Assembly: GCF_002163875.1 (NCBI RefSeq)
Contig: NZ_CP019333.1
Coordinates: forward strand, 1,928,864 to 1,992,863
DNA: 64,000 nucleotides
Source: Gilvibacter sp. SZ-19
GTDB taxonomy: Bacteria > Bacteroidota > Bacteroidia > Flavobacteriales > Flavobacteriaceae
Direction: 5' to 3'
Position numbers and translations under genes: made by a program. Positions 4,592 through 31,071 of the stretch are shown here, in pieces (the first letter of the stretch is position 1; the number at the start of each line of letters is the position of its first letter). The notes below the pieces were generated by a model. That model searched no databases and was not told the origin of the DNA. It saw only the letters and a program-made list of their open reading frames with translations.

Positions 4592-4611
4592 CGTGTTAAC
4601 CAACCGGAAAA

Positions 4612-10560: not shown

Positions 10561-10633
<73 letters not shown>

Positions 10634-10638
10634 CAAAG

Positions 10639-11049: not shown

Positions 11050-11093
11050 ATCGGCGTGAAAGGAAGATTCATAAAGTGAATCAATCCTGTAGT

Positions 11094-11156
11094 TTTGCGT
11101 AAGCAAACGAGGTATTGAAATATAGTTGCGAAGCAACTGAGGGTTGCGCTTTCAGC
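11094..11156. repeat. 63-bp direct repeat, copy 2
   Basis: Second identical copy of 10987-11049. Only two copies exist, and the 44-bp spacing is not that of a CRISPR array. Confidence 0.9.
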
Positions 11157-11465
11157 GTTGACTCTGAACGATCATTTACGCAGTAAATGAATCCTGCCAC
11201 TAAGTTTAGTTTATAAGCTGCCCGCGCTAGCGATCGCAGATATCTTCATCAAATGTCTATTAGACGTTTGGTTTTACTGTTGTAAAACTACATTTCGATA
11301 GCCTCTAAGCAACGCGAAGAGATAAAGCGGAGAGCGCGGTGCTGTAGAGTGCAAAGTGCTACTACGGCAAGCGCCCAAAAAAGCACACAAATCACAAGGC
11401 TCTTAATTTTCTTTAAAAAGAATTAAATTCGATATAGTTAATTATTAAACCTTGTAGAGTAACTG

Positions 11466-12945: not shown

Positions 12946-13233
12946 TTAGAAGAGCAGATTCATTGCTATGAGTAGGATACAGATAGCCAGACTACCCAAT
13001 AGCGTATTGAGCACTACTTTAGGTTTTTGAACCGTCAGAATAGAAGCTAGCACTCCAGTACACATTACCACTGCCATAAATACCTGAGCCATTTGCCAAA
13101 ATGAGCTGCCGTTCAAAAATATCGTATATACGGCTATTCCGCCCAAACAGGTCGATACAATGATCGCCGTTGAAGCGTAGAGCATAAAATTTTCTGTCCA
13201 GTCTTGATTCAGTTTAGCATATAGTGCACTCAT
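12946..13233 (-). CDS. Small three-helix membrane protein of unknown function
   Basis: 95 aa beginning MSALYAKLNQDW, then three hydrophobic helices (about residues 15-37, 45-65, 74-94). No recognised motif. The upstream Met at 13263 is rejected as the start because a -7 box (TAGTTTTG, 13261-13268) covers it, so the message begins further down. The promoter has the same CRP/FNR-type palindrome as the cbb3 and universal-stress genes, so it is probably induced together with them. A respiratory or membrane-stress role is inferred from regulation only. Confidence 0.65.
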   Translation of the reverse strand: MSALYAKLNQDWTENFMLYASTAIIVSTCLGGIAVYTIFLNGSSFWQMAQVFMAVVMCTGVLASILTVQKPKVVLNTLLGSLAICILLIAMNLLF

Positions 13234-13260
13234 GGTATTTGATTTTAATTGTTTACACCA

Positions 13261-13303
13261 CAAAACTAAAGGGCTAGAAGCGGCTAGAATATGATATTGG
13301 TCA
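13261..13303 (-). promoter_or_regulatory. CRP/FNR-type activated promoter of the small membrane protein
   Basis: On the minus strand TGACCAATATCA (13292-13303), then 23 bp, then TAGTTTTG (13261-13268), a perfect -7 box. There is no -33 box; the palindrome centre would lie near -41. Confidence 0.72.
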
Positions 13304-13486
13304 GCTCGACAAATTCCTTTTGAGGATTTTTGGCACGAGAGTTGTTATATATTAAACGACACTCATTTTAATGATTGTCAAGGAATTGAAACATAAAGTA
13401 AATGCCCGAGCATCCCTAAAAAGAAACAATTCCATGCCTTGAAATCTGTCTTTACTAACGTATACTTGCAGATAAGAAATACAATC

Positions 13487-13520
13487 AAAAAAGCGCGACT
13501 TATACAAGCCGCGCTTTTTT
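13487..13520 (-). terminator. Terminator of the cco operon
   Basis: AAAAAAGCGCG (13487-13497) pairs with CGCGCTTTTTT (13510-13520). It overlaps the stop codon of the TauE-like gene and ends the minus-strand cco transcript. Confidence 0.8.
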
Positions 13521-14220
13521 AATGACACTCTATTTTAGCCTCTATTTTCTGCGGATTTAATTTAGGAGAGACATAGGGGATTCCCAAGCCCAATCCTCGA
13601 AGGATAAACAAACAAGCTATTAAAGCGACCATAACCGGAATTGCTTTGCGAATTTTGAGCTGTATGGTTTTGTTCAAGAAATTTCCGGCATAGATGGCTC
13701 CTGTCATTAGGGGTAAGGTACCCAGACCAAACAGCACCATATACAGGCTTCCTTGCCATGGATTGGCCAAAGCCAAAGAACCGAACACAGCCATATACAC
13801 CAGACCACAGGGTAAGAACCCGTTGAGGAGTCCAAGGGTTAAAAAGGTGTCCGGGCGTTTGGATTTAAGGGCTTGTCCTAAGGCAGACTTAAGTTTGCCA
13901 ATTGCTAGCGCCAAAGGTTTGGAAAGACTGTGTTTAAAGAGTATTCGCTGTGGAATCGTCACTGTTAACAACAGGAGCACTCCGGCTATGATGCTCAAGT
14001 ATTGTTGCGCCCCGAATAAAGAGAGTCCTTTTCCTAAGAATCCGAAGACAAGTCCTAAGAGTCCGTAAGCAGTGAATCGGCCTAAGTGATAACTGCCTAT
14101 CTGTACCAAGCGAAGGCTGTGGTTGTCTCGACTGACAGGTAAAAGAAAGGCAATAGGGCCACACATGCCAATGCAATGCAGGCTACCCAATAAACCTAAT
14201 ATTAAGCCGGAAACTAGCAT
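13519..14220 (-). CDS. Sulfite exporter TauE/SafE-type membrane protein in the cbb3 operon
   Basis: 233 aa with six or so membrane helices. The first helix carries the conserved LGSLHCIGMCGP motif, with Cys and Met residues suited to copper handling. This subgroup (UreH/TauE-like) is regularly the last gene of cbb3 assembly clusters in Bacteroidota. It abuts ccoH with no gap (stop of ccoH at 14221, start at 14220) and is the terminal gene before the terminator. A role in copper supply or cytochrome maturation is inferred from context and the HCxxMC motif. True sulfite export is unlikely to be its job here. Confidence 0.78.
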   Translation of the reverse strand: MLVSGLILGLLGSLHCIGMCGPIAFLLPVSRDNHSLRLVQIGSYHLGRFTAYGLLGLVFGFLGKGLSLFGAQQYLSIIAGVLLLLTVTIPQRILFKHSLSKPLALAIGKLKSALGQALKSKRPDTFLTLGLLNGFLPCGLVYMAVFGSLALANPWQGSLYMVLFGLGTLPLMTGAIYAGNFLNKTIQLKIRKAIPVMVALIACLFILRGLGLGIPYVSPKLNPQKIEAKIECH

Positions 14221-14676
14221 TTAATACTGTATAGTGGTTTCGTATAGAAATGGTTTTCCTTGGTACTCCCACGATACTTTAATGTTCCAGCGACCGTCCA
14301 ACAAGCGGGTTTCAGGTATGAGCAAATTGGATTCCGATAGAACTAATGGAAAGTCGGAATCGAGATGCTTGTCAGACGGTCTGTATAGGAACACTGTACC
14401 TTTAGTATTTTCTTTATTGAGTTCTTCTGGAAACTCTAGGATCCAGCCCTGCGGAGCTCTTTTGCTCACTATTGGCCCAGAGAGGGTAGCTAGATTCTGT
14501 TTGGCTTCCAGCTGCTGATTCAAGACCAGCTCTTGTTTATAATAATCTTCTACCACCAATTCGTGGTCGTATTTGGAATCGGTCATCATGGTGATGACAA
14601 AATACAGGATGAACCCAATGAACAGCAGCATGCCGATCACCAGTCCTGTTCCCCAATTCAATTTTACAGTGCTCAT
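14221..14676 (-). CDS. ccoH: FixH/CcoH family cbb3 oxidase assembly protein
   Basis: 151 aa: one N-terminal membrane helix (residues 9-31, GLVIGMLLFIGFILYFVITMM cut by the family Y/D-H motif after it) then a periplasmic beta-sandwich. The segment YDHELVVEDYYKQEL after the helix is typical of FixH. The protein is needed for stable assembly of cbb3 oxidase in proteobacteria. It is 12 bp after ccoG. Confidence 0.85.
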   Translation of the reverse strand: MSTVKLNWGTGLVIGMLLFIGFILYFVITMMTDSKYDHELVVEDYYKQELVLNQQLEAKQNLATLSGPIVSKRAPQGWILEFPEELNKENTKGTVFLYRPSDKHLDSDFPLVLSESNLLIPETRLLDGRWNIKVSWEYQGKPFLYETTIQY

Positions 14677-14688
14677 ACCGTTTGAATT

Positions 14689-16110
14689 TTATTGATAACT
14701 GATAGGGCCTAAAAAGGTGGTTTTAGCCGTTTCGATCAGCTCGTCCCCACTGTAGACCCCGATTTTTAATTTGATATTGTCTGCATCTACTTCCCTTCTT
14801 GGGATGTCGATGTATAAGGTTCCTTCTGCCAAGCCTTGTCTGGGCACATCAAAGGTGTCCATACTCACAATGGTCACTGTTCCATCGTGAGAAAGCAGTT
14901 TAAAAGTAATATCGGCCACCTGGTCGCTGGTTTTGTTCACCAGTTTGTAGGTGTATACATTGCTGATGATGTTATTCTCCTTCTTCTGATACAGCTGTCC
15001 AGGCAGTCGAAGAATAGTAGCCTCCAAGTCGTTTCTCAAGAACAGCATCCCGCTAAAGATCCCGATCAAGATCAGTAGTACTGCAGAATAGCCTTTAAGA
15101 CGCGCATTGAAGGTGAATTTGGCCTTCTTTTCTATATTGTCCTCGCTAGCGTAGCGAATAAGCCCTTTAGGCAGATTTACTGCCTCCATCATGGAATCGC
15201 AGGCATCTATACAAGCCGTACAGTTCACACATTCCAATTGGGTACCGTTCCTAATGTCAATTCCGGTAGGGCATACGTGCACGCATTGAAAGCAATCGAT
15301 ACAATCGCCCTTGCCACTAGCTGCGCGATCTTCGTTCTTTTTAAACTTGGCCCTACCAGCCTCTTTTTCTCCCCGCTTGTGGTCGTAAGCTACTACTATG
15401 GACTTGTTGTCTAGCAAAACACCTTGTAAGCGGCCATAAGGACAAGCGATAACACAGACCTGTTCTCTAAACCAGGCGAACACAAAGTAGAATACCGCAG
15501 TAAAGATCAGCAGCGATATAAAAGTGCTCATGTTCTGCAGCGGACCTTCTGTGATGTATTCCAAAAGTTTGTCACTGCCAATTAAGTAAGCCAGAAACAC
15601 ATTGGCTATCAGAAAAGAGATGATAAAGAACACTGTCCATTTGGTCACTCTTTTTCTGATCTTTTCCGCATTCCAAGCTTGCTTGTCCAGGCGGATCTGT
15701 TTCCCTCGATCGCCTTCTATCCAATACTCAATACGTCGAAAGACCATCTCCATAAAAATGGTCTGAGGACATATCCATCCGCAGAAAAGTCGGCCAAAGG
15801 CCACTGTAAAAAAGATCACAAAGACCACCCCAATGATCATCATTATTACAAAGAGGTGAAAGTCTTGTGGCCAAAATGGAAACCCAAAGATGTTGAATCG
15901 ACGCTCCAGCACATTGAGCAAGAGGAACTGATTCCCATTTACTTTTATAAAGGGAGCGGAGAACAAAAAAGCCAGTAGCACATAGCTTACAATTTTGCGG
16001 TACTCGTAAAAGCGACCGCTGGGTTTTTTAGCAAATATCCAAGCGCGCTTGCCCTTATCGTCAATAGTGGCAATGCTGTCTCTGAATACTTCGTTCTCCG
16101 GGGTTTCCAT
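14689..16110 (-). CDS. ccoG: CcoG/FixG/RdxA polyferredoxin, cbb3 oxidase accessory protein
   Basis: 473 aa. Four or five membrane helices, the NapH-like CGWICPQTIFMEMVF motif, CPYGRLQ, and two 4Fe-4S clusters (CIDCFQCVHVCP and CVNCTACIDACD). The C-terminal 120 residues form an immunoglobulin-like periplasmic domain. CcoG of proteobacteria acts in reduction of copper during cbb3 maturation. It starts 10 bp after the ccoP stop. Confidence 0.92.
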   Translation of the reverse strand: METPENEVFRDSIATIDDKGKRAWIFAKKPSGRFYEYRKIVSYVLLAFLFSAPFIKVNGNQFLLLNVLERRFNIFGFPFWPQDFHLFVIMMIIGVVFVIFFTVAFGRLFCGWICPQTIFMEMVFRRIEYWIEGDRGKQIRLDKQAWNAEKIRKRVTKWTVFFIISFLIANVFLAYLIGSDKLLEYITEGPLQNMSTFISLLIFTAVFYFVFAWFREQVCVIACPYGRLQGVLLDNKSIVVAYDHKRGEKEAGRAKFKKNEDRAASGKGDCIDCFQCVHVCPTGIDIRNGTQLECVNCTACIDACDSMMEAVNLPKGLIRYASEDNIEKKAKFTFNARLKGYSAVLLILIGIFSGMLFLRNDLEATILRLPGQLYQKKENNIISNVYTYKLVNKTSDQVADITFKLLSHDGTVTIVSMDTFDVPRQGLAEGTLYIDIPRREVDADNIKLKIGVYSGDELIETAKTTFLGPISYQ

Positions 16111-16120
16111 GATAGTGGTC

Positions 16121-17086
16121 TTAGTTCATCGAGATCCCAGCCGTAGCGGTGGAATCATTGATCACTTCGGATGCTTCCAGTTCGGACTCTACTGCTTCGG
16201 AGCCGGCATTTGGATCGACCCATAACTCGCCATCAGCCGGCAAGGCATCTGGTGGATTACTACCTTGCATGCTCAGTACATAACTGGCTAACTGTGCAAT
16301 TTCATTTGGCGTAAAGGTTCGGTTCCAGTTTACCATACCTTTCCCGGGGCGACCTCCTTTAGAAATGGTGGTAAATACATTGCTAATACCTCCGCCCAAG
16401 ATCCAATATTCGTCTGTAAGGTTAGGGCCAGTAAGTCCACCACCGTCTGGTTTATGGCATACGGCGCAGTTCTTCTCAAAGCGATTCTTACCGGCACTTA
16501 GGTCTGCTGCATCGGTTAGCATGACTACTGTAGATGCATCTACCAGGTCTTTTGCTTGTGCCTTATAGGCTTCTACGGCGATACGAGCTTCTTCCATCTG
16601 AATTTCGAATTCTGTGGCCTGATCCGCTCCTTGAAAAATGTGGTATTTGGCCATGTAGATCACTCCAAAAATGATGGTCACATAGAATCCGTACAACCAC
16701 CAAGGCGGAAGTTTGTTATCCAGTTCTTTTATACCGTCGTAATTGTGATCTAGAATGATCTCGCCTTCTTCTTCTATAGGGCGACTGCCCAATAGTTTCT
16801 TGTAAATACGCTTAAGGCCAGCAAATTGGTTGGCTTTTGCCTCTGCAGTTGCTGCGTCGTATTTAGCGCGTTTTTCTTCGTCCATGGCGCGGTAGAGGAT
16901 ACTATTCAAAGCCTCCACGCTGTATTCAATTGCCATGGCGAATAAGAAAACAAACACCACTACTCCCCAAAGAATTGGGTGTTCGGCATAAGTGTATTCG
17001 GTTCCTGTGTCCACTACCCAATCCAGTACAAAGTAGGCCAGAATAGTGACCAGAGCGATTCTTAAATAAGCATATGTATTTTTCAT
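16121..17086 (-). CDS. ccoP: cbb3 cytochrome oxidase subunit CcoP (single heme c)
   Basis: 321 aa. Two membrane helices near the N-terminus, a charged linker, another helix (LPPWWLYGFYVTIIFGVIYM) and a C-terminal cytochrome c domain with one heme site NCAVCHK and GPNLTD. Proteobacterial CcoP normally has two CXXCH motifs; only one is present here, which may be the usual Bacteroidota form. An acidic Ala/Glu-rich tail follows. The start overlaps the ccoQ stop by 4 bp. Confidence 0.88.
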   Translation of the reverse strand: MKNTYAYLRIALVTILAYFVLDWVVDTGTEYTYAEHPILWGVVVFVFLFAMAIEYSVEALNSILYRAMDEEKRAKYDAATAEAKANQFAGLKRIYKKLLGSRPIEEEGEIILDHNYDGIKELDNKLPPWWLYGFYVTIIFGVIYMAKYHIFQGADQATEFEIQMEEARIAVEAYKAQAKDLVDASTVVMLTDAADLSAGKNRFEKNCAVCHKPDGGGLTGPNLTDEYWILGGGISNVFTTISKGGRPGKGMVNWNRTFTPNEIAQLASYVLSMQGSNPPDALPADGELWVDPNAGSEAVESELEASEVINDSTATAGISMN

Positions 17087-17279: not shown

Positions 17280-19490
17280 TTACGGTTGGTTTTTAGCGGT
17301 TACGTCTTCTGCATTCTCGATCTTAATGTCCGTACCCAAACGCTGCAGATATGCGATCAAGGCGACTACTTCACGATCTTTCATTTCTATAAATTCCGGA
17401 TTGCCGGCATTCTTAGCTTCTGTATAGCTCTCCTTAAAGTCCGGATCGTTCATCAAGTTGCTCTCAATTTGAGCTCCTTGCTCGTCCATCCAAGTCTGAG
17501 CGCGGGCAACATCCTCATCAGTGTAAGGCACGCCTAAACTGATCATAGCACGCATTTTAGCCTCAGTCTTAGATTTGTCTAAACCGTTTCTTATAAGCCA
17601 GGTGTATTTAGGCATGATAGAACCTTCTGATACTGACTGCGGATTGTTGAAGTGACGCAAATGCCAACTGTCGTTGTATTTGCCTCCAATACGCATAAGG
17701 TCTGGCCCGGTGCGTTTGGATCCCCAAAGGAAAGGGTGATCATATACGTATTCTCCAGAACGCGAATACAAGTTATTGCCTGTCCAATCGTAGCGTTCTA
17801 CCTCCGAACGGAACGGACGAATAAGTTGCGAGTGACACGCATTACAGCTTTCTCTGATATAGATGTCACGACCTTCTAATTCCAATGGAGTGTAAGGCTT
17901 CACTGTGGTAATGCGCGGCACATAATCGTCTACCAAAAGCGATGGAATGATCTGTACGATACCTCCAATAAGGATCGCAACAGTTGCATAGAGTGTCAAA
18001 CGAACCGGACGACGCTCCAACCAAGTGTGGTAGCCTTCTTTAGCGGTGCGTTTTGCAGTTACGCGTTGCAGCGGAGCAGCCTCAGCTAACTCATCGGTTA
18101 CTTTACTTCCTTGTTTTACGGTCTGAACAATATTGTAGATCATCACGATCACCCCAAGGATGTACAAACTACCCCCAATGGCACGCATCCAATACATCGG
18201 CATGATCTGGTCTACAGTTTCCAAGAAGTTACCGTAGGTCAATGAACCGTCTGGATTGAATTGCTTCCACATAGAAGCCTGAACAAATCCAGCTACGTAC
18301 ATCGGCAAGGCGTAGATGATAATCCCCAAGGTTCCGATCCAGAAGTGGGCATTGGCCAAACGAATAGAGAACAAGGAGGTTTTAAACAGTTTTGGAAACA
18401 ACCAGTAGATCATACCAAATGCAAGGAAACCGTTCCAAGCCAAGGCGCCAATGTGCACGTGAGCAATAATCCAGTCGCTAAAGTGAGCTACTGCATTGAT
18501 GTTCTTTAGCGAAAGCATTGGACCTTCAAAAGTTGCCATCCCGTATCCGGTAATAGCCACTACCATGAATTTCAATACCGGGCTGGTGCGTACCTTATCC
18601 CAAGCACCTCGCAAGGTCAAAAGTCCGTTGATCATCCCACCCCAAGAAGGTGCTATTAACATGACCGAAAAGGCCACCCCAAGGTTTTGTGCCCAATCTG
18701 GCAGTGCAGAATAGAGCAAGTGGTGTGGTCCCGCCCAGATATAAATAAAGATCAGTGACCAAAAGTGAACTATAGATAAGCGATAGGAATAAACCGGTCT
18801 GTTTGCGGCTTTAGGTACAAAATAGTACATCAGCCCTAAGAAAGGTGTAGTTAAAAAGAAGGCTACTGCATTGTGGCCGTACCACCATTGTACCAGCGCA
18901 TCTTGAACTCCTGCGTAAGCAGAATAACTTTTAAGCGCTCCAACGGGCATTCCAATGCTGTTTACAATATGCAATACAGCAACGGTAACAAAGGTTGCCA
19001 GGTAAAACCAGATCGCCACATAGAGGTGACGCTGTCTTCTGCGCAATATCGTCCCGATAAGGTTGGCCCCAAAGACCACCCAAACCAAGGCAATGGCAAT
19101 ATCAATGGGCCATTCCAATTCGGCGTATTCTTTAGAGGTGGTGTAGCCTAGCGGAAGCGTTATCGCTGCAGATACGATGATCAGCTGCCATCCCCAGAAA
19201 TTGATCTTACTGAGCAGATCGCTAAACATTCTGGTCTTGAGCAGGCGTTGAGTAGAGTAATAGACCCCCGCGAAGATCGCATTACCCACAAAGGCAAAGA
19301 TCACCGCATTGGTGTGTAAAGGTCTCAATCTACCAAAGCTCAGCCAGGAAATGCCATCTGTCAGGTTGGGGAACATAAACATAAAGGCCAGTAGGAGTCC
19401 TACGGCCATCCCTATGATACCCCAAAAAATACAGGCTATCAGGAAATTCTTGACAATTTTGTTGTCGTAATAAAACTGTTGTGTTTCCAT
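17280..19490 (-). CDS. ccoNO: Fused cbb3 oxidase subunits CcoN and CcoO
   Basis: 736 aa. Residues 1 to about 480 form the twelve-helix catalytic CcoN subunit, with heme/copper ligand region AHFSDWIIAHVHIGALAWNG and GHNAVAFFL. After a short linker, a helix (VRLTLYATVAILIGGIVQII) begins the CcoO part with heme c site ESCNACHSQ and GPDLMRIGGKY. The N-O fusion is a feature I associate with Bacteroidota. The enzyme reduces O2 with high affinity under low oxygen. It follows ccoS after 4 bp. Confidence 0.93.
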   Translation of the reverse strand: METQQFYYDNKIVKNFLIACIFWGIIGMAVGLLLAFMFMFPNLTDGISWLSFGRLRPLHTNAVIFAFVGNAIFAGVYYSTQRLLKTRMFSDLLSKINFWGWQLIIVSAAITLPLGYTTSKEYAELEWPIDIAIALVWVVFGANLIGTILRRRQRHLYVAIWFYLATFVTVAVLHIVNSIGMPVGALKSYSAYAGVQDALVQWWYGHNAVAFFLTTPFLGLMYYFVPKAANRPVYSYRLSIVHFWSLIFIYIWAGPHHLLYSALPDWAQNLGVAFSVMLIAPSWGGMINGLLTLRGAWDKVRTSPVLKFMVVAITGYGMATFEGPMLSLKNINAVAHFSDWIIAHVHIGALAWNGFLAFGMIYWLFPKLFKTSLFSIRLANAHFWIGTLGIIIYALPMYVAGFVQASMWKQFNPDGSLTYGNFLETVDQIMPMYWMRAIGGSLYILGVIVMIYNIVQTVKQGSKVTDELAEAAPLQRVTAKRTAKEGYHTWLERRPVRLTLYATVAILIGGIVQIIPSLLVDDYVPRITTVKPYTPLELEGRDIYIRESCNACHSQLIRPFRSEVERYDWTGNNLYSRSGEYVYDHPFLWGSKRTGPDLMRIGGKYNDSWHLRHFNNPQSVSEGSIMPKYTWLIRNGLDKSKTEAKMRAMISLGVPYTDEDVARAQTWMDEQGAQIESNLMNDPDFKESYTEAKNAGNPEFIEMKDREVVALIAYLQRLGTDIKIENAEDVTAKNQP

Positions 19491-19494: not shown

Positions 19495-19698
19495 TTACAG
19501 TTGCTCGTTGGTTGAATCTTTTATAGTTGTAGTTGATGTTTCTGGTCGTTCCTTGACCAACTCATCTTCGAATAACATGCGTACGGCAGGTGTATAAGTG
19601 TCGTCGTATTGTCCGCGCTTCACAGAAATGATAAAAGCGATGAAAAAGACTATCGCCACGCAGATGCTCACACTTAATAAGAGAAAAATAATACTCAT
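19495..19698 (-). CDS. ccoS: cbb3 oxidase assembly protein CcoS
   Basis: 67 aa, a single N-terminal helix (SIIFLLLSVSICVAIVFFIA) followed by SVKRGQYDDTYTPAVRMLFED, the CcoS hallmark. CcoS is needed for cofactor insertion into cbb3. It is the first gene of the ccoS-NO-Q-P-G-H-tauE run and has its own promoter inside the end of ccoI. Confidence 0.85.
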   Translation of the reverse strand: MSIIFLLLSVSICVAIVFFIAFIISVKRGQYDDTYTPAVRMLFEDELVKERPETSTTTIKDSTNEQL

Positions 19699-19718: not shown

Positions 19719-19761
19719 TAAAAGTAGCGGTGGGCGAGGGCGGAAAATATGACATTGGTCA
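19719..19761 (-). promoter_or_regulatory. CRP/FNR-type activated promoter of the ccoS-NO-Q-P-G-H operon
   Basis: Minus strand TGACCAATGTCA (19750-19761), 23 bp, then TACTTTTA (19719-19726) as -7 box. The palindrome overlaps the ccoI stop codon, so the oxidase structural operon can be switched on separately from ccoI. Confidence 0.75.
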
Positions 19762-22161
19762 GTTTCGATTTTTTCTGTTGGATTTTAGCAGGCGCATGCC
19801 AAAGTATCGCGTGCTAATGGTGGTGAAGATCACTATGCTAATAGAACTAAGCGGCATTAAAATAGCAGCAACCACAGGCTCCAGATGTCCAGTGACCGCA
19901 AAGCCCAAACCGATCAGGTTGTATAAGAGCGAGATGGCAAAACAGCTGTATATGATCTGCTTACCTAACTTTGCCAGACCAAAGAAAGCTGCAAGTTTTT
20001 CAAAGGAATCAGCTTGCAAAATGGCATCGGATGCTGGAGTGAACACATTGGTGTCTTCTGCTATAGCGATACCGATATCGGATTGCGCCATTGCCCCTGA
20101 ATCGTTGAGGCCGTCGCCTATCATCATCACCTTATGACCTTGGTCTTGTAGAGATTTTATATAATCGAGTTTGTCTTGAGGCGATTGCTGGTAGCGGACC
20201 TCAGTTCCAGCGGGGATCAAAGCGTTCAAATGACTGGCCTGGCTGTCATTGTCTCCCGTTAGCACCGCTAATTTCTTATTTGTAGCTAAGCGCTGCAGTA
20301 GTTCTTTAAGACCTTGGCGATATTCGCTTTGAAATACATAATGCCCTTTATACTGCGCTCCGCTGCTAATATGTACTACTGCACCTTGGGCCGTTGCACT
20401 AGCCTGATTGTGAACAAAACTAGAAGCACCTATCTTCATGCTTTGTTCGTTCTTGGAGGCTCTGATCCCCTGGCCAAGCGTTTCGGAGAAATCGTCTAAA
20501 CTCACGATCTCTTGCTCTTCCAAGGTGTTGTATAAACTGCGACTCAAAGGGTGATTAGAAGCTCTGAGCGAACTGTATAGTAAGCGTTGTTCTTCTACAC
20601 TTAAAGGTAAACCGTGATAAGAGAACGCACTTTGGGCTGGCGTACTCAGTGTACCTGTCTTGTCAAAAACTACGGTATCGATACTGCTCCAATTTTCTAT
20701 GGTTGCACTGTTTTTAACGTAGCAGTTATTGCGCCCAAAAAGACGCACCAGGTTTCCTAAGGTAAAAGGTGCACTCAAGGCTATAGCACAAGGGCAAGCA
20801 ACTATGAGTACTGCAGTGATCACATTGAACATCATACTCGGGTCTAGAAACCACCAGATCAAGCCGCTCAGTACTGCGATGCTAACAATGGTAATGGTAA
20901 ATCGTTTGCTGATCTGATCGGTCAAGCTGTTAAAGCGCAAGCTTTTCCCCTTGTCAAAGGCCGCATTACCCCAGAGCTGGGTCAAATAGCTTTGACTTAC
21001 CGTTTTAGTTACCTCAATTTCTATGGCTGCCCCACATTGTTTACCACCGGCATAAAGGGTTGCTCCTGCACTTTTGTGAATGGGTAAGGCCTCTCCCGTA
21101 ACAAAGCTATAATCTATTAAAGCCTCACCTTGTTGAAGTTTTCCGTCTACAGGGATGATCTCGTTAGAACGTATAAGTAAGTGATCACCTTTTTGAATGT
21201 CTTTTAGTGGGATCTGTGTTTCCTTTAATTTGCCTTTATGTTTGCTTAGGCGAGTAACTCCGAGTGGAAAATAGGACTTGTAGTCCCGTTCAAAGGAGAG
21301 GTAAGAATAGGTTTTCTGTTGGAAGAACCTGCCTAATAGTAGAAAGAAGACCAAACCACTGAGGCTGTCAAAGAATCCCGGACCCCAATCCATGATCACA
21401 TCGATCACTGACCTTAAAAATAACACACTTACTCCAAGAGCTATCGGTAGGTCTATATTGAGCATGCCAGATCGCAAGCCCTTAAAGGCCGCTTTGAAAT
21501 AATCCGAAGCCGCATAAAACACCACTGGTAGTGAAAACAGCAGCATTATGGTTCTAAACATGGGCTTGTAATGTTCTAGCCAGATCTCATCGAAATCAAA
21601 ATACTCCGGAAACGACAGGAACATAATGTTGCCAAAGGCAAATCCGGCTATCCCCAATTTATAGATCAGACTGCGGTCTTCTTTGTGCTGATCTTTCTCT
21701 GCGGAGGCCAGGTTGATCTTGGGCTGGTAACCAATGCGACTCAGCAATACTACAAGCGCCTTTACAGACAACTCCTTTTCGTTGAACTGAATCTGCGCTT
21801 TCTTGGCCGGAAAGTTCACTGTGCTACTGTACACCCCGGGATGTAATCGACCAAGATTTTCCAAGACCCAAATACAGGAGCTGCAATGAATGGCAGGAAT
21901 TTCAAAACTGATAAGCTGTCGATCTCCTTCGCTGAATTGCAAAAGACTGGCAGCGATCTCAGGGTTGTCGAGATAATCGAAATGTGTTGTTGCTTTATTT
22001 TGGGAGGTGCCCGGAGCTTTTTCGAGCTCGTAATAAAACTCCATGCCGTTCTGATGCAAAATGTCATAGACCGTTTTGCAGCCGTTGCAACAGAATGATT
22101 TTTGTTGATGTATGATGGGCGATCGTCCGCAGGGATCTCCGCAGTGATAACAGGCTTCCAT
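19759..22161 (-). CDS. ccoI: Copper-transporting P1B-type ATPase CcoI/FixI
   Basis: 800 aa. N-terminal Cys-rich knuckles (CYHCGDPC, CCNGC), an HMA domain with HCSSC, eight membrane helices, the CPCAIAL metal-transport motif, DKTGTL phosphorylation site and GDGLND hinge. It supplies copper for the cbb3 active site. It is divergent from the universal stress gene at 22279, and the two share one palindrome. Confidence 0.93.
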   Translation of the reverse strand: MEACYHCGDPCGRSPIIHQQKSFCCNGCKTVYDILHQNGMEFYYELEKAPGTSQNKATTHFDYLDNPEIAASLLQFSEGDRQLISFEIPAIHCSSCIWVLENLGRLHPGVYSSTVNFPAKKAQIQFNEKELSVKALVVLLSRIGYQPKINLASAEKDQHKEDRSLIYKLGIAGFAFGNIMFLSFPEYFDFDEIWLEHYKPMFRTIMLLFSLPVVFYAASDYFKAAFKGLRSGMLNIDLPIALGVSVLFLRSVIDVIMDWGPGFFDSLSGLVFFLLLGRFFQQKTYSYLSFERDYKSYFPLGVTRLSKHKGKLKETQIPLKDIQKGDHLLIRSNEIIPVDGKLQQGEALIDYSFVTGEALPIHKSAGATLYAGGKQCGAAIEIEVTKTVSQSYLTQLWGNAAFDKGKSLRFNSLTDQISKRFTITIVSIAVLSGLIWWFLDPSMMFNVITAVLIVACPCAIALSAPFTLGNLVRLFGRNNCYVKNSATIENWSSIDTVVFDKTGTLSTPAQSAFSYHGLPLSVEEQRLLYSSLRASNHPLSRSLYNTLEEQEIVSLDDFSETLGQGIRASKNEQSMKIGASSFVHNQASATAQGAVVHISSGAQYKGHYVFQSEYRQGLKELLQRLATNKKLAVLTGDNDSQASHLNALIPAGTEVRYQQSPQDKLDYIKSLQDQGHKVMMIGDGLNDSGAMAQSDIGIAIAEDTNVFTPASDAILQADSFEKLAAFFGLAKLGKQIIYSCFAISLLYNLIGLGFAVTGHLEPVVAAILMPLSSISIVIFTTISTRYFGMRLLKSNRKNRN

Positions 22162-22183: not shown

Positions 22184-22258
22184 CAAAGATGCGCAGCACG
22201 GCTTTGTAGAACTATGACGAATGTCATTCTTGTAGTTTGGCAAACTGTGGTATCTTTA
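22184..22258. promoter_or_regulatory. Shared CRP/FNR-type site for divergent ccoI and universal stress gene
   Basis: TGACGAATGTCA (22215-22226). Leftward: 23 bp to CATCTTTG (22184-22191) for ccoI. Rightward: 24 bp to TATCTTTA (22251-22258) for the stress gene. One site can therefore serve both directions with almost equal geometry. Confidence 0.72.
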
Positions 22259-22278
22259 ATCCAATTCAAATCAGAACT

Positions 22279-23130
22279 ATGACACGCATATTGCTGCTCA
22301 CCGATTTTAGTGAAAACGCGACCCAAGCCATACATTATGCCTTTGCATTATGGAGTGGCCAGCCTTGCGAATTCTATGTGCTCAATGTGCAGAAGTCTTC
22401 TGATTTTACTACAGATGACCTACTCACCGCTAAGCCGCATGAGAGCATATTTGCCAGTATAATTGCAGATAACAAAGCGGCATTAGATACCTATATCAAA
22501 GGTTTGGAGCAATTTATTACAGACGAAGATTTTAAGCTGATCCCCAAGGTGGATTACGATGTCTTTACAGATTCTGTAAACCAAGTGATTGCTGGCAACG
22601 CCATAGACTATGTGGTGTTGGGAACCAATGGCGCCAGTGATGCTAAGGAGGTTATTTTTGGGAGCAATGCCCTGCAAGTTATTCGCAATGTTGCTTGTCC
22701 AACACTGATAGTACCAGAAGGGTTCAATTATCGTCCTTTGGCTGAGGTATTATACACGCAAACCGAACAGTTCAATCCAGATGCAGAGCAGCTTAAGCCC
22801 CTGGTGCAATTACTTGCAGATCGTTCTAGCAGAGTGCATTTGTTGGCCATTCATACTCCAGACAGTTCAGATTTAAAACAATTGGAAGAGACCTTAGCCG
22901 CTTTAGCAGAAGATCCGTTTGGCGTTTTAGAGACCGAAGCTGTTGTGGAGACCTTAGAAGGCTTGCCAGTGCCTCAGGCCGTGAATGCCTACGAGCAGCT
23001 CAATGAGGTCGATCTGCACGTTTTTGTGGTGCAGAAAGAATCGTTCTTGAAACGTTTTCTCTTCGGATCCGATACCGGTCAGATCAGTCATAAAACTAGA
23101 GTCCCGCTCTTAGTCCTCCACCAAGAGTAG
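22279..23130 (+). CDS. Universal stress protein, tandem UspA domains
   Basis: 283 aa starting MTRILLLTDFSENATQAIHYA. The first UspA domain ends in the nucleotide-binding pattern VVLGTNGASDAKEVIFGS and then TLIVPEG. The second domain (160-283) is more degenerate. The downstream ATG at 22279 is chosen because the earlier one (22237) lies upstream of the -7 box. Three paralogues lie within 9 kb, all with the same promoter type. The 3' end overlaps the convergent lipoprotein gene by 21 bp. Confidence 0.85.
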   Translation: MTRILLLTDFSENATQAIHYAFALWSGQPCEFYVLNVQKSSDFTTDDLLTAKPHESIFASIIADNKAALDTYIKGLEQFITDEDFKLIPKVDYDVFTDSVNQVIAGNAIDYVVLGTNGASDAKEVIFGSNALQVIRNVACPTLIVPEGFNYRPLAEVLYTQTEQFNPDAEQLKPLVQLLADRSSRVHLLAIHTPDSSDLKQLEETLAALAEDPFGVLETEAVVETLEGLPVPQAVNAYEQLNEVDLHVFVVQKESFLKRFLFGSDTGQISHKTRVPLLVLHQE

Positions 23131-23784: not shown

Positions 23785-24630
23785 CTAAGATTCGGTGTGT
23801 AAGGTAAGTACCGGAACCTTAGAGTGATAGTTGAGTTCTCTAGCCAATGGTCTTCTAAACCAATTGGAGAAGATACCGTGTTTAGGATTTATAAAGGCCA
23901 CCATGCTACTATCGCGACTTTGAACAAAGCAGTTCAAACCTGTAGGAATGTCCACATTTTCCAAAAGGTGGAAACTGTGTTCTACTCCTTGCAGCATAGT
24001 CGTTAGGAGTTTCTTTTGATTTTTCTGATCCGAATCCAAAGGCTCATCGCTAATGTGCAAGACCCTGATCGGTGCTTTGCACAAATGCGCCATAGTGGTC
24101 AAATGCTGCATTTGCTGCTTTTTATATCCTTCTCTAAAACTGGTCGGAAAAACGATCTCTTCCATGCGTCCAAAAATTGCCGATTTGGGAATTGCCAAAA
24201 CCGGGCAACAGCGAATCTTTTCCATTACAGCCAAAGTGTTACCTCCTAAGAGCACATCTATGGCATCCGTCGCACCTTTGGTCCCCATTATGACCAGATC
24301 AATGTCCTTGTCGCGACATACATTGGCAATAGCCTCTGTTAAAAAACTGTATTCCGAGATATAATGAAATCGGTGTTGTGTGGATTCATCTCTAAAGGCC
24401 AATTGGCGTGAGAGTTTTTTTAAACCAACTGCCGAAGCCTCCTTGAGCTCATCTAGCTGTGGCAAGCCGAGTTGTGAGGCCATAAGGTTTTCGGTTATTT
24501 GTGTACTCGGTGTGTAGGCGTGCAATACATAAAAGTCGCAAGCTTCTTTGTCAAAGAGTTCTATGGCGTATGAGATCGCATTCCAGGAGTTCTTTGAAAA
24601 ATCTGTGGGTAGTAGGACACGTTTGTTCAT
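23785..24630 (-). CDS. Universal stress protein, tandem UspA domains
   Basis: 281 aa, start MNKRVLLPTDFSKNSWNAISYA. First domain carries LVIMGTKGATDAIDVLLGGN and CPVLAIPK. The second is divergent. Paralogue of the genes at 22279, 24698 and 30104. Its promoter carries the TGAY-N4-RTCA site. Confidence 0.85.
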   Translation of the reverse strand: MNKRVLLPTDFSKNSWNAISYAIELFDKEACDFYVLHAYTPSTQITENLMASQLGLPQLDELKEASAVGLKKLSRQLAFRDESTQHRFHYISEYSFLTEAIANVCRDKDIDLVIMGTKGATDAIDVLLGGNTLAVMEKIRCCPVLAIPKSAIFGRMEEIVFPTSFREGYKKQQMQHLTTMAHLCKAPIRVLHISDEPLDSDQKNQKKLLTTMLQGVEHSFHLLENVDIPTGLNCFVQSRDSSMVAFINPKHGIFSNWFRRPLARELNYHSKVPVLTLHTES

Positions 24631-24647: not shown

Positions 24648-24690
24648 TGAAACTACACTACCAGAGCTACTAAAACTATGATATATGTCA
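24648..24690 (-). promoter_or_regulatory. CRP/FNR-type activated promoter of the universal stress gene at 23785-24630
   Basis: Minus strand TGACATATATCA (24679-24690), 23 bp, then TAGTTTCA (24648-24655) as weak -7 box, 18 bp before the ATG. Confidence 0.68.
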
Positions 24691-24697
24691 GCAGCGA

Positions 24698-25522
24698 TTA
24701 CTCGTGAAGCAGCAGTACAGGGAGTTGGTTCTCAAAAACCGAGGCGTGTCCATTGCTTATAGGGTTAAAAAGCAATTGTTCGCAAAAACTGCGATTTTTA
24801 GCCAGTAAGCCCAATACACCTATAGGGTGTTTTTGCTGATACTCATCTAAAGCGGCATAAAGTGCTCCGCCGTGAATCTCGTCAAAAGCCTCAGGATCTT
24901 CAATGAACTCGTTTAAAAATTCGCGGTTGGCCAATTGAATCGCATTGAGCTCCGGGTTGTTCTTACTAAAGTGCAATACTTTAAGGCGCAGCGCATTGGT
25001 TCCTGCAAAACCCATCAAGGTATTGAGAACGCTACTCTGATAGTAGTTGTTGTAATTGGTCGCAAAGGCCAGGGTAGCCGTTGGTTCTAAATTAGCTTTT
25101 GGAGGTACTATCAAGAACGGACACTGCACTCTAATGATAACATCTTGCGCAAAACGTCCGAGTTGCGGCTGTTTCTCTTCCGAACAACACCCAATGACAA
25201 TTAATTCAATATCGTGTTTAAGGACCATTTTACGCAAGGCCTCTACCGGAGGCAAATCCAAAAAGTGGACATCAGCACGATGCCGTTTTGGATCGAGATG
25301 TTTTTGAAAATTGACGTTGAATTGTTGAAGTTTTATCCGATTAGAAGCGCATTTTTCTCCTTTACAGGGTAGCTTGGGTGGTTTTCTGCCGGGTTTAGAA
25401 TGGCAGTCGGATACGTAGACCAAATGGTAGTGCACAGATTCATTGGCAAAGCACCGCGCCGCATACTGGGCGGCATGTGCTGCATTTTTTGAAAAATCCG
25501 TTGCAATTAGAATCTTGCGCAT
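24698..25522 (-). CDS. Universal stress protein, UspA family
   Basis: 274 aa. The start at 25522 (MRKILIATDFSKNAAHAAQYA) is preferred because the ATG at 25543 lies in the -7 box. The nucleotide-binding pattern is LIVIGCCSEEKQPQLGRFAQDV, less canonical than in its neighbours. A cysteine cluster (CHSKPGRKPPKLPCKGEKC) is inserted after the first strand-helix unit and could bind metal or respond to redox; this is unusual for UspA. Confidence 0.8.
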   Translation of the reverse strand: MRKILIATDFSKNAAHAAQYAARCFANESVHYHLVYVSDCHSKPGRKPPKLPCKGEKCASNRIKLQQFNVNFQKHLDPKRHRADVHFLDLPPVEALRKMVLKHDIELIVIGCCSEEKQPQLGRFAQDVIIRVQCPFLIVPPKANLEPTATLAFATNYNNYYQSSVLNTLMGFAGTNALRLKVLHFSKNNPELNAIQLANREFLNEFIEDPEAFDEIHGGALYAALDEYQQKHPIGVLGLLAKNRSFCEQLLFNPISNGHASVFENQLPVLLLHE

Positions 25523-25540
25523 AATACCTATAGATTGCTC

Positions 25541-25583
25541 CAAAGGTAAGCGGACACTTTGCGCTAAAGAATGACAAAAGTCA
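25541..25583 (-). promoter_or_regulatory. CRP/FNR-type activated promoter of the universal stress gene at 24698-25522
   Basis: Minus strand TGACTTTTGTCA (25572-25583), 23 bp, then TACCTTTG (25541-25548), a perfect -7 box. It sits 6 bp after the stop of the REC-CRP regulator gene. Confidence 0.75.
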
Positions 25584-25589
25584 GTTTTG

Positions 25590-26654
25590 CTATTCCATCT
25601 GCTCCAAAGCGATCAGATCGAGGATCTTTATGTTGCGTCCTTCTATGGCGATCCAGCCATTTTTCTTGAACTGAGATAAGGTTCTGATAAGACTTTCTGT
25701 AGCAATTCCGGCAACGCTGGCCAGGTCGTGTCTAGAAATTCGGATCTGTTGTTCAGAATCATCATTCAAGATGGCCGCGAACTGTAAGATGGTCTGGGCA
25801 GTTTTTCTGCGGACCGAACCGTAGGCCATTTGCAGTAGCTGTTCTTTGATGTTGTTTATGTCGTCTGCGAGCAAGTTAATAAGCTCTAAGGTCAGTTGCT
25901 GATTCTCTTCGAGTATGTTGACAAACTCTTGTTTAGAAACGGCCAGTAGTTCTGCATCTTCTAGGGCAGTTGTAGACTCGTGATGCGCTCCGTTCTCCAA
26001 GATCTGCTCCAGACCTAGAAAGCTTCCTTCTTTTCGTAAAGAGGTGATGAGTTCTTTGCCGTTCTCGTCCATGGTAAAGCACTTTACCACTCCGGAGTTT
26101 ATCAGGTAGATCTGATGAATTCTGTCTCCTTGTTCATAAATGGACTCGCCCTTCTCGTAGCTTTGAATTTCACCCTTGTCTCCTAAAAAGGCGATGAGCT
26201 CGGGTAAGTTTTTGAGATTGCCTTCTTCTTGCTGCGGATTTGCCTCTTGCTGTTTTTCACTTACCTGATTCAACAAAGTGGATTTGGCTAAACGGCTCTT
26301 AATTGCGCTGAGCAATTCATCCTCATCGCAGGGTTTGGTCAAGTAGTCGTCTGCTCCCATATCCATCCCCATACGGACTTCCTTGTGCTCAGTTTTAGCA
26401 GACAGAAATATAAACGGGATGTGCTGCGTCTTGTGATGATCAGACAGCGCTTCCAGAACGCCGTAACCATCTATTTCTGGCATCATAATGTCACAGATAA
26501 TCAAGTCTGGAACTTCTCTTAAGGCTTCTGTGATGCCTCGTTTTCCGTTTGGAGCTGTAAGGACCTTGTAGCCATCTAGCTCTAATAGTTCTGCGGTGTT
26601 CTCTCGCAGTACCGTATCGTCTTCTATCAATAAGATAGTTTTAAGCTCATCCAT
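25590..26654 (-). CDS. Response regulator fused to CRP/FNR-type transcription factor (FixJ-FixK-like in one chain)
   Basis: 354 aa, start MDELKTILLIEDD. Receiver domain (1-125) with E11-D12-D13, phospho-acceptor D55 (CDIMMP) and K107 (LTKP). A linker rich in Glu/Gln follows, then a cyclic-nucleotide-binding beta-roll (about 155-270, EKGESIYEQGD, GSFLGLEQIL), a dimer helix and an HTH_CRP domain. The recognition helix ATESLIRTLSQF has E320 and R324 in the positions that contact TGA/TCA in CRP and FNR. There is no N-terminal Fe-S cysteine cluster as in FNR. It overlaps the kinase gene by 8 bp, so it is the cognate regulator. Its sites are probably the TGAY-N4-RTCA palindromes nearby. Confidence 0.88.
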   Translation of the reverse strand: MDELKTILLIEDDTVLRENTAELLELDGYKVLTAPNGKRGITEALREVPDLIICDIMMPEIDGYGVLEALSDHHKTQHIPFIFLSAKTEHKEVRMGMDMGADDYLTKPCDEDELLSAIKSRLAKSTLLNQVSEKQQEANPQQEEGNLKNLPELIAFLGDKGEIQSYEKGESIYEQGDRIHQIYLINSGVVKCFTMDENGKELITSLRKEGSFLGLEQILENGAHHESTTALEDAELLAVSKQEFVNILEENQQLTLELINLLADDINNIKEQLLQMAYGSVRRKTAQTILQFAAILNDDSEQQIRISRHDLASVAGIATESLIRTLSQFKKNGWIAIEGRNIKILDLIALEQME

Positions 26655-27882
26655 GATTCTCTTTCGTTGGAATTTGAATAGTAAAAACTGTGCCTTCTCC
26701 GGGCTCACTGCTAAAGGAGATCTGACCTCCCAAGTTTTCCAAATGGGTTTTTGCGATATTGAGACCAATACCGGTTCCCTGGGTCAGTAAGGCATTTTCC
26801 GCTCTAAAATAGCGATTAAAAATATGTTTTTGATCGGCCTTGGGTATCCCTATCCCTTGGTCTTTGATGTGTAAGGTCAAGAGATCGTTCTCGTGTTCCC
26901 CTTCTATGGTCACCCGAGTGCCCTCACCTGAATACTTCACCGCATTCCCAACCAGATTAGATAGTACCAGTTCTAAAATCTTTTCGTCGAATAGGAGTTC
27001 TACTTCTTCTAAATTGTCTGGATAATTGATGCGCTGGCCTTCTTTAAGTAGGGTGCTAGCATCATAAACTACCTCGTTAAGCACTTTGCTCAAGGGGAAT
27101 CGGCTGTAATTGTAGCTCACTTTGCCGGTTTCTAGTCTTTCTATAGATAAGAAATCGTTTAAGATATTGTTGAGGTATTTTACCTTGCTTTTAATGGTGT
27201 TGAGGTGTTTGTCACGCTTGTCTTGCTGCTCGGAGGTCTTGTATTTAGAGATCAGGGTCGCAGAACTCAAGATTCCGCTTAACGGGGTTTTAAACTCATG
27301 CGATACCAAAGACAAGAACTTTGTTTTTAGTTCTCCGAGTTCCCGCTCCTTTTGCAAGGCTTCCTTGGTTTTGGCCTCTGCTTCAATTCGTTTTGCGACT
27401 TCTTTGCGGAGCACCTTTACCGCATCGTCGAGTTCTTGTGTACGCTCTTTGATCTTGTCTTCGAGCTGTTCGTTGAGTTCCAAGATCTGACGCTGGTGTT
27501 CCACCCGTTCCGATATGTCGATCACAATGGCCATTACGTAACGCTTTCCGTGTAATTCAAAAGGATTTAGACCAGCTTCTAAGGGGAACTTACTTCCGTC
27601 TTTCCGTTGGCCGTATAGCTCACGGCCTTGCCCCATAGTACGTTTAGAGCTTTGGTGCATAAAGCCGTCCACATAACCAATATGGGCCTTGTGGTATTCC
27701 ATTGGGATGAGAATGTTTAGCGGTTCGCCCATTAGGTGTCCCGGGGGATAGCCAAACATTTGGTGCGCTGCTGTATTTGCCGAGGCGATGCGTTGATCCG
27801 GAGCCACTACGATTATTCCTTCGGAAACCGCATTGAAGATGGTTTCCACTATATTGATATCTCCGGGGTTGCTCATGTTCAT
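26647..27882 (-). CDS. FixL-like PAS histidine kinase (putative heme O2 sensor)
   Basis: 411 aa (ATG at 27876 is an equal alternative start). One PAS domain (10-125), coiled coil (128-185), HisKA with phospho-acceptor H195 (LVSHEFKTPLSG), HATPase_c with GNAVKYS, DQGIGIP and GTGIGLNIAK. There are no membrane helices. In the PAS domain, AHIGYV aligns with the FixL heme-binding helix (His67 at the heme-ligand position) and Arg87, 20 residues later, aligns with the distal Arg of Bradyrhizobium FixL; YGQRKDG also matches. Heme binding is an inference. The gene is first in a two-gene operon with the REC-CRP regulator. Confidence 0.85.
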   Translation of the reverse strand: MNMSNPGDINIVETIFNAVSEGIIVVAPDQRIASANTAAHQMFGYPPGHLMGEPLNILIPMEYHKAHIGYVDGFMHQSSKRTMGQGRELYGQRKDGSKFPLEAGLNPFELHGKRYVMAIVIDISERVEHQRQILELNEQLEDKIKERTQELDDAVKVLRKEVAKRIEAEAKTKEALQKERELGELKTKFLSLVSHEFKTPLSGILSSATLISKYKTSEQQDKRDKHLNTIKSKVKYLNNILNDFLSIERLETGKVSYNYSRFPLSKVLNEVVYDASTLLKEGQRINYPDNLEEVELLFDEKILELVLSNLVGNAVKYSGEGTRVTIEGEHENDLLTLHIKDQGIGIPKADQKHIFNRYFRAENALLTQGTGIGLNIAKTHLENLGGQISFSSEPGEGTVFTIQIPTKENHG

Positions 27883-27979
27883 TGCACTAAAAATAAGGAT
27901 TTTTTAGCCCCTTTCGCTGCTGATATTTATCATTATTTTAAAGGGGAACTTATTCTAGTTTTACCTAAATTTAATCGAT

Positions 27980-28387
27980 ATGAGCACAAAAGAACCCTTA
28001 GCCCCTTTTTATCAGCATCTTGGGCATCTGTTTTATGCCGTTGCTGCTAGTGATAAGGTGGTCAGAAAATCAGAAATGGAAACCCTGCAGGCCATGGTAT
28101 TATCCAAATGGGTGCCTTTAGGCGAAGCGGAAGACGAATTTCACACCGATCTGGCGTATCATATTGAGATCGTGTTTGACTGGCTCAAGCACAACGCCAA
28201 GGGTGCCGAAGAGTCCTTTGAAAGATTCGCCACCTATGTGGAAGCCCATCCGCAGGAGTTTACCCGCAAACGCAGACAGATGATCTGGCAGACGGCCAAT
28301 GATATCGCAGAAGCCTTTAGCGGCACCAATAAATCAGAACTCATCATGCTTTCTAAGTTACGATTGCTTCTCAATAAAATCGAGTAG
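27980..28387 (+). CDS. TerB-like domain protein
   Basis: 135 aa, all helical. FYAVAASDKVVRKSEMETLQAMV resembles the first helices of the TerB/DjlA-type domain, which carries acidic residues thought to bind metal. There are no membrane segments. A -7-like TAGTTTTA (about 27955) precedes it. It abuts the thioredoxin gene (stop and next ATG are contiguous). Function is unclear. Confidence 0.65.
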   Translation: MSTKEPLAPFYQHLGHLFYAVAASDKVVRKSEMETLQAMVLSKWVPLGEAEDEFHTDLAYHIEIVFDWLKHNAKGAEESFERFATYVEAHPQEFTRKRRQMIWQTANDIAEAFSGTNKSELIMLSKLRLLLNKIE

Positions 28388-28687
28388 ATGAAAAGTTCCT
28401 TTAACGAGCTTGTCTCAAGCCATCCTTTGGTTCTGGTAGACTTCTATGCTACCTGGTGTGGCCCCTGCAAAGCCTTAGCGCCCATATTGAGTGAGGTCAA
28501 AGCGGATTTGGGCGACAGTCTTAAGATCGTTAAGATCGATGTAGATCAACATCCAAAACTCGCTGCAGCACAGCAGGTACGAGGTGTACCGACCATGGTT
28601 CTTTTTAAGAATGGAAAAGCGGTTTGGAGACAATCCGGTCTGCTTCAAAAATCCGCAATAATTCAAACTGTAAATCAGCACAGCTAA
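28388..28687 (+). CDS. Thioredoxin
   Basis: 99 aa cytoplasmic thioredoxin with active site WCGPCK, cis-Pro region RGVPTMVLFKNG and no signal peptide. Length is that of a classical thioredoxin. Contiguous with the TerB-like gene upstream and one base before deoC downstream, so probably in one operon. Confidence 0.9.
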   Translation: MKSSFNELVSSHPLVLVDFYATWCGPCKALAPILSEVKADLGDSLKIVKIDVDQHPKLAAAQQVRGVPTMVLFKNGKAVWRQSGLLQKSAIIQTVNQHS

Positions 28688-30103: not shown

Positions 30104-30937
30104 CTACATTTTTTGAGTAAGTACGGGTAGTACCGAATGGTTAACCACATCTTCACCTATACTGCCTGCGAAGAAGTGAGCCAATCCGCTTCTACCGTGG
30201 GTTGGGATAGCAATAGCATCTGCTTTATTAGAGAAGCTATAGTTGAATATCCCGTCTTCTACCGTGTAATCACTGTAGTGATTCACGTCGCTAGGTCTGA
30301 GGTCTTCTATCCCAGCCTGAGCAAAGAATTTAAAGATGCGATCCTCAATCTCTATGCTGGATCTAAAGCGCTCTCCAGGTAAGTTGATATATACCAACTC
30401 CATTTGAGCACCAAGCACATTGATCAAATTGCGGATTCTTTTAAAAGCATCGATGTTTTCGGTTTTGAAATCACAAGCAAAGACCACTTTATCGATGGTA
30501 AAATCTGCCATATGTTCTTTGATCACCAACACTGGAGTACTTGCAGTTCGAACCACTTTTTCTGTGTTAGATCCTACGAAAACCTCTTTGAGTCCAGTGC
30601 TCCCGTGAGAACCCATTACTATCAGATCGGCGTCACAAGAAATCGCGACATCATTGATCTCGGTGAAATTGGTGTAGTTCTTTACGTTCTGGTGAACTGT
30701 GACCCCATTTAAATAAGGGGCAGACAGCAATTCGTCAAAACGTTTTTCTGTCAATTTCATATGGTACATCGCTTCAAAGACTTCCTGAGACTCGTCTTTG
30801 GTAAGGACAGCATCTGTTAAGCCCATCATATGGACTACATGGATAGAAGCGCCGTGCTTTTTAGCGATAGCAGCAGCTACTTCCATAGCGTATTTAGAAT
30901 AATCCGAAAAGTCTACGGGTACTAAGATATTTTTCAT
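30104..30937 (-). CDS. Universal stress protein, tandem UspA domains
   Basis: 277 aa starting MKNILVPVDFSDYSKYAMEVAA. First domain has the complete ATP-type pattern LIVMGSHGSTGLKEVFVGSNTEKVVR and PVLVIKE; the second ends AIPTHGRSGLAHFFAGSIGEDVVNHS, also complete. It is the most canonical of the four stress paralogues. Convergent with deoD; own CRP/FNR-type promoter. Confidence 0.9.
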   Translation of the reverse strand: MKNILVPVDFSDYSKYAMEVAAAIAKKHGASIHVVHMMGLTDAVLTKDESQEVFEAMYHMKLTEKRFDELLSAPYLNGVTVHQNVKNYTNFTEINDVAISCDADLIVMGSHGSTGLKEVFVGSNTEKVVRTASTPVLVIKEHMADFTIDKVVFACDFKTENIDAFKRIRNLINVLGAQMELVYINLPGERFRSSIEIEDRIFKFFAQAGIEDLRPSDVNHYSDYTVEDGIFNYSFSNKADAIAIPTHGRSGLAHFFAGSIGEDVVNHSVLPVLTQKM

Positions 30938-30969: not shown

Positions 30970-31012
30970 CAAATATACCGGGCAGTTCAACAATAAAATA
31001 TGACCATTGTCA
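30970..31012 (-). promoter_or_regulatory. CRP/FNR-type activated promoter of the universal stress gene at 30104-30937
   Basis: Minus strand TGACAATGGTCA (31001-31012), 23 bp, then TATATTTG (30970-30977), a perfect -7 box. Confidence 0.75.
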
Positions 31013-31071
31013 TACAGCCCTAAGGCCTGTTGTGACTGGGGTGAACTGATATAACCTTAAACGAAAAGTAA

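Follow-up and report, generated by a model that had tools for sequence, protein, structure and literature searches.

A predicted heme-PAS kinase overlapping a receiver-CRP regulator near the cbb3 oxidase genes of Gilvibacter sp. SZ-19, and its relatives in Bacteroidia

The window, that is, the whole 64,000-nucleotide stretch of Gilvibacter sp. SZ-19 DNA analyzed here (NZ_CP019333.1, positions 1,928,864 to 1,992,863), bears on its minus strand the genes of a soluble sensor histidine kinase of 411 aa (26647-27882) and of a fused response regulator of 354 aa (25590-26654). The kinase is built of the Pfam domains PAS (residues 12-125), HisKA (186-253, with the H-box SHEFKTPL) and HATPase_c (299-407), and is probably cytoplasmic, because the PAS domain begins at about residue 12 and leaves no space for an N-terminal membrane segment. 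The regulator carries in one chain a Response_reg domain (residues 7-119; 26298-26636), a cNMP_binding domain (164-251) and an HTH_Crp_2 DNA-binding domain (286-353; 25596-25799). Its ATG (26654) lies within the final codons of the kinase, giving an overlap of 8 bp (26647-26654). Both this overlap and the joining of a receiver to a CRP/FNR module had been proposed in an earlier note on this DNA, and both are borne out.

The N-terminal part of the kinase (residues 1-136; 27475-27882, minus strand) is predicted to be a FixL-type, heme-binding PAS domain, a reading supported by sequence and by a structural model. It matches SmFixL (1d06) with a phmmer E of 5e-18, and full-length SmFixL with 36% identity over 117 aa (2e-24). 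Its closest solved relatives by sequence are SmFixL, BjFixL and EcDosP, with a gap-free alignment at the heme site; heme PAS proteins head the sequence matches, and LOV domains score far lower. The predicted proximal heme ligand H67 (codon 27682-27684, minus strand) and the distal R87 (codon 27622-27624, minus strand), 20 residues apart, align with H194/R214 of SmFixL, H200/R220 of BjFixL and H77/R97 of EcDosP, as the earlier note had claimed for FixL; these numbers follow the numbering of the known proteins and for BjFixL and DosP agree with the chain ranges of the structural matches. The alignment also holds in the AlphaFold (AF2) model of the domain (pLDDT 89), in which H67 is situated on helix 61-77, the helix F position of the proximal His. 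The model matches BjFixL 1dp6 (Z 16.5; residues 154-269) with a constant offset of 133 (H67=H200, R87=R220) and EcDos 1vb6 with a constant offset of 10 (H67=H77, R87=R97), where the range ends alone are reported and the same offset at either end means that there is no net gap.

The best structural match of the model is the heme PAS domain of FG214 (10jx, Z 17.4), and LOV and NifL PAS folds match it too (Z about 15). Around R87 the window domain reads TMGQGREL, of the FG214-like RxMGx flavour, in contrast to the IIGIGRxV of FixL; judged by this motif, it is nearer to FG214 than to FixL (IIGIGR) while retaining the FixL Arg. M83, aligned to M172 of FG214, is a possible sixth heme ligand. The His at the heme position is absent from all other PAS domains of the window's genome recovered by the same profile. 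In other genomes, it is retained by members of this PAS subfamily that lie away from the regulator, often with Leu replacing the Arg. The His is therefore a hallmark of the subfamily and not of the pair, and H67 alone was rejected as proof of O2 sensing by the window kinase.

The receiver of the regulator keeps the residues of working receivers: the acidic pocket E11/D12, the predicted phospho-acceptor D55 (codon 26490-26492, minus strand) and K107. D55 is invariant across the aligned regulators (sets of 18 and 30), as are D12 and K107, together with E320 and R324 of the recognition helix (reading head ATESLIRTL). The CRP/FNR superfamily features, i.e., the cNMP-binding fold and HTH_Crp, are present, and the N-terminal cysteine cluster of FNR-type proteins is absent from the regulator, whose only cysteines are at positions 54, 109 and 192. 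The regulator alignment shows no phosphate-binding motif like that of CRP, which makes cAMP an unlikely ligand. Four further cNMP-binding proteins are encoded in the window's genome, none of them pairing a full HTH with the reading head of the regulator.

The pair is no single case. Full-length fusions are found in 14 of the 37 genomes of the window's family and, in a phylum sample of 296 genomes, are confined to its class, Bacteroidia, over which the system is spread; carriers include Aquimarina, Arenibacter, Aequorivita, Winogradskyella, Flavobacterium, Mucilaginibacter, Dyadobacter, Chitinophaga and Sphingobacterium, as well as plasmids of Hymenobacter, Runella and Spirosoma, whose records label the proteins merely as “response regulator” and “PAS domain-containing sensor histidine kinase”. 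The search for such fusions beside PAS kinases, suggested in the earlier note, returned a PAS kinase immediately upstream on the same strand at 91 of 101 loci, a set that includes some redundant loci, a few at contig ends and some second copies. Two second copies without an adjoining PAS kinase (loci L049 and L050) likewise lie beside universal stress protein (Usp) genes. Among 88 distinct PAS domains of partner kinases, the His is kept in 82, the Arg in 60 and both in 59, the Arg87 position being Met, Leu or other residues in about a third of the kinases. Near-textbook FixL PAS domains (IIGIGRE) account for 17 of the 88, all 17 with His and Arg, and a cco gene lies inside the retrieved neighbourhood at 9 of 18 FixL-like loci. 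Position 85, the equivalent of DosP Met95, is variable (18 His, 17 Ile, 8 Lys, 7 Gln), which suggests differing heme ligation states beside the same regulator. The conserved adjacency and the invariant receiver residues support, at the level of sequence, the direct wiring from the kinase to the CRP-type protein that the earlier note had put forward.

The cbb3 genes, also expected nearby, lie 3.4-12 kb from the regulator, all on the minus strand: a CcoI-type P-type ATPase (19759-22161), a ccoS-like ORF (19495-19698) preceding a fused CcoN-CcoO (17280-19490), CcoP (16121-17086), CcoG (14689-16110), FixH/CcoH (14221-14676) and a DsbD_2 protein (13519-14220). CcoN and CcoO form a single ORF of 736 aa (COX1 + FixO). 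The predicted targets are ccoI and ccoNO together with universal stress proteins at 22237-23130 (plus strand), 23785-24630, 24698-25543 and 30104-30937 (all minus strand), so that the predicted regulon reaches beyond cbb3. Further from the pair, a 103-nt repeat is present twice (10987-11196; the copies are 84% identical) in a long intergenic region on the downstream side of tRNA-Met (10561-10634).

The matching operators that had been announced for the cco genes are present and promoter-phased. One minus-strand site precedes ccoS-ccoNO (19749-19762, with TACTTTTA at 29 bp), and a perfect operator lies between ccoI and the Usp gene 22237-23130 (22214-22227), with a phased element in either direction (29 and 30 bp). 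On the minus strand, others precede the Usp genes 24698-25543 (25571-25584; TACCTTTG at 29 bp) and 23785-24630 (24678-24691; TAGTTTCA at 29 bp), a small membrane-protein ORF at 12946-13263 (13291-13304; TAGTTTTG at 29 bp) and, again as a perfect operator, the Usp gene 30104-30937 (31000-31013; TATATTTG at 29 bp). The remaining operator (27920-27933) is shared between the kinase and the plus-strand genes at 27980-28687, a conserved 135-aa protein with no Pfam match followed by a thioredoxin-like ORF, with a -7-like element at 29 bp toward the latter and at 31 bp toward the kinase, and makes autoregulation of the kinase possible. Sites matching ATGAY-N4-RTCAT with at most one mismatch are only modestly enriched in the window (17 vs. 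8 expected), and the 29-31 bp phased element occurs at these seven cluster sites only. Classic FNR or CRP palindromes were found at none of the cluster promoters.

In relatives, the operator precedes 77% of Usp, 75% of ccoI, 90% of 27980-like and 47% of kinase genes, vs. 2-3% in shuffles. Among 258 promoters, defined by a TGAY-N4-RTCA site 40-85 bp before the start, TAnnTTTR (one mismatch allowed) stands exactly 29 bp from the operator centre in 176 and at other offsets in about 5; exact TAnnTTTG is found at offset 29 in 44 promoters, and the reversed control gives none there. TAnnTTTG is the -7 element of Bacteroidota, and a distance of 29 bp from it therefore sets the operator near -41, the position of a class II activator; with starts inferred from TAnnTTTR, the fixed place near -41.5 would fit a class II activator of CRP/FNR type. 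Counted over whole genomes, the bare operator gives a weak signal (10 matches vs. 14 in the reversed control for genome G000), and the promoter-phased form alone is informative in such counts. Further phased sites in the window's genome precede genes for a CBS-domain protein, a ferredoxin/thioredoxin-reductase-like flavoprotein and a heavy-metal-binding protein, and in relatives genes for Hsp20-like, ribosome-hibernation-like, HemN-like and BON-like proteins, these names being readings of sequence and not of a family scan. The operator with TAnnTTTR at 29 bp marks a wide Flavobacteriales regulon (Usp, CBS, Hsp20-like, HPF-like, HemN-like), which by its content is reminiscent of hypoxia or dormancy regulons elsewhere.

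The number of phased sites per genome depends on which regulators are present. Genomes with the fusion only (n=5) have 6-10 (median 8) and those lacking both the fusion and any FNR-like homologue (n=16) a median of 0 (p = 0.0004 vs. fusion-only); the median is 6 with FNR-like proteins only (n=30) and 13 with both (n=9). Therefore, the operator belongs to the FNR-like family. Exclusive reading by the fusion was rejected, as cysteine-bearing FNR-like proteins accompany the same operators in relatives. These stand-alone proteins carry a CxxC near the N-terminus and a recognition helix almost as in the fusion, and are candidates for iron-sulfur O2 sensing within the same family. Their cysteines are C4, C7, C29, C53 and C106. 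In window-type lineages, the fusion is the sole family member detected that could read the operator. Its CRP part scores 288-311 against Bacteroidota FNR-like proteins vs. 138 against FixK, these relative scores being used instead of a tree in which support between the fusion and FNR-like groups was weak and the outgroup branches were long. The regulator output resembles a Bacteroidota FNR in which a receiver replaces the cysteine input.

We consider it probable that the pair constitutes a two-protein oxygen (or heme redox) switch, in which a heme-PAS kinase feeds a phosphorylated FNR-type activator. At low oxygen, the PAS heme would lose O2 or be reduced, and the kinase would autophosphorylate at the HisKA His; the phosphate would then pass to D55 of the overlapping regulator, and the phosphorylated regulator would bind the TGAY-N4-RTCA operators centred near -41.5, contacting RNA polymerase as a class II activator. 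The genes turned on would be those of the cbb3 oxidase and its assembly, the universal stress proteins, the 27980 gene and the kinase-regulator operon itself. With somewhat less assurance, we also lean toward a broader reading: throughout Bacteroidia, the control of an FNR-type regulon by oxygen would have been re-plumbed, with a receiver fed by a FixL/FG214-type heme kinase in place of the iron-sulfur cysteine input of FNR, yielding a one-step pathway for cbb3 and dormancy-type stress genes that would stand in for FNR in window-type lineages.

The nature of the signal can be read differently. It is rather unlikely, in our view, that the signal perceived by the PAS domain is heme redox state, NO or CO, by way of a hexacoordinate heme (H67 + M83, in the style of FG214 or DosP), and not O2 as in FixL, even though the best structural match of the domain is FG214, a heme PAS one-component regulator of Fimbriimonas ginsengisoli (PDB 10jx) for which a preprint gives H156 as the proximal and H175 or M172 as the distal ligand (PMC13060918). 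This one studied member of the RxMGx flavour is a redox/bis-His switch (PMC13060918), M83 aligns with its M172, and the 18 partner domains with His at position 85 would agree with such ligation; nonetheless, the Arg that stabilises O2 in FixL and DosP has its counterpart in R87 of the window domain and in 60/88 partners, and the predicted targets are the genes of a high-affinity O2 oxidase. We give little credence to an ordinary two-component system with a PAS domain that either lacks heme or binds some other ligand, in which case the linkage to cco would reflect how FNR-type proteins use the operator in general. PAS domains are promiscuous, and the LOV and NifL folds match the model well; yet the heme-position His is nearly universal among the partner domains and most keep the Arg, heme proteins and not LOV domains lead the sequence matches, and the near-textbook FixL PAS domains have related regulators as partners and, in half of the cases, cco genes as neighbours.

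The earlier note had also seen in the pair the rhizobial FixL/FixJ/FixK pathway reduced to two proteins. Of this, the FixL type of the PAS domain is supported and the history of reduction is not. A true evolutionary collapse of the rhizobial pathway, gained by transfer, would account for the same module functions, the same kind of target and the same operator core, TGAY-N4-RTCA being that of the FixK box. We judge it very improbable, since, by comparison with S. meliloti FixLJK from pSymA, the transmitter, receiver and CRP parts are no nearer to FixL, FixJ and FixK than to general families, and the CRP part, by the scores above, sits with the Bacteroidota FNR-like proteins. The transmitter is 22% identical to that of FixL, with SHEFKTPL vs. 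AHELNQPL in the H-box, and is not of FixL type; the receiver is 26% identical to FixJ and the CRP part 24% to FixK. The output is cNMP_binding plus HTH_Crp_2 and not the NarL-type HTH of FixJ. Only the PAS domain is close to FixLJK; the parts would therefore derive from Bacteroidota stock put together around a FixL-like sensor, or else that sensor would have been acquired, and the three-protein pathway does not look simply shortened.

To our knowledge, oxygen sensing and cbb3 switching in Bacteroidota are poorly described. No description of a receiver-CRP fusion, alone or with a FixL-like heme kinase, was found in the largely open-access literature searched; the parts are of known kinds, and their wiring, from a FixL-like heme kinase to a receiver-fused FNR-type activator, may be undescribed. 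The system offers a defined gene pair, a promoter-phased operator and a list of predicted targets spanning a whole class and, if the reading is true, a naturally occurring FNR-type factor under the control of phosphorylation. Furthermore, since the PAS domains beside the same regulator range from near-textbook FixL to FG214-like, the evolution of heme-sensing chemistry could be compared against a constant output.

Among known systems, FixL-FixJ-FixK of S. meliloti and B. diazoefficiens shares with the switch preferred here a kinase heme PAS with proximal His and distal Arg, an end regulator of CRP/FNR type and the cbb3 oxidase as target; it differs in that the window pair lacks a NarL-type FixJ and a step in which a separate fixK is transcribed, its HisKA comes from another family and its receiver is joined to the CRP module. 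By analogy, we propose that the pair would work like FixLJ-FixK minus one step. The S. meliloti fixLJK locus has Usp-like and pyridoxamine-oxidase-like neighbours (4526-5350 and 8860-9405 of that locus), and at another locus (L154) a phased operator precedes a protein similar in sequence to the product of a fixLJK-neighbour gene. FG214 is the nearest PAS by structure and in its RxMGx flavour, its H156 and M172 matching H67 and M83 by their spacing in the sequence, but it is an HTH-PAS single chain without a kinase, its H175 aligns with G86 of the window domain and R87 is Leu there. EcDosP aligns His77/Arg97 with H67/R87, whereas its output is a phosphodiesterase and the window domain has Gln at the Met95 position. 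FNR and the cysteine-bearing FNR-like proteins of Bacteroidota share the reading head (ATES.IR.LS.FKKEG) and the phased operator with the window regulator, which has a receiver and not an N-terminal cysteine segment. Finally, NmpRSTU of Myxococcus xanthus is a system in which a heme kinase governs cbb3 genes and universal stress genes when O2 is low (PMC11841059); the heme kinase (predicted in the window) and both kinds of target are alike, and it differs from the window pair in having a globin-coupled sensor, a phosphorelay and an NtrC-type regulator (PMC11841059).
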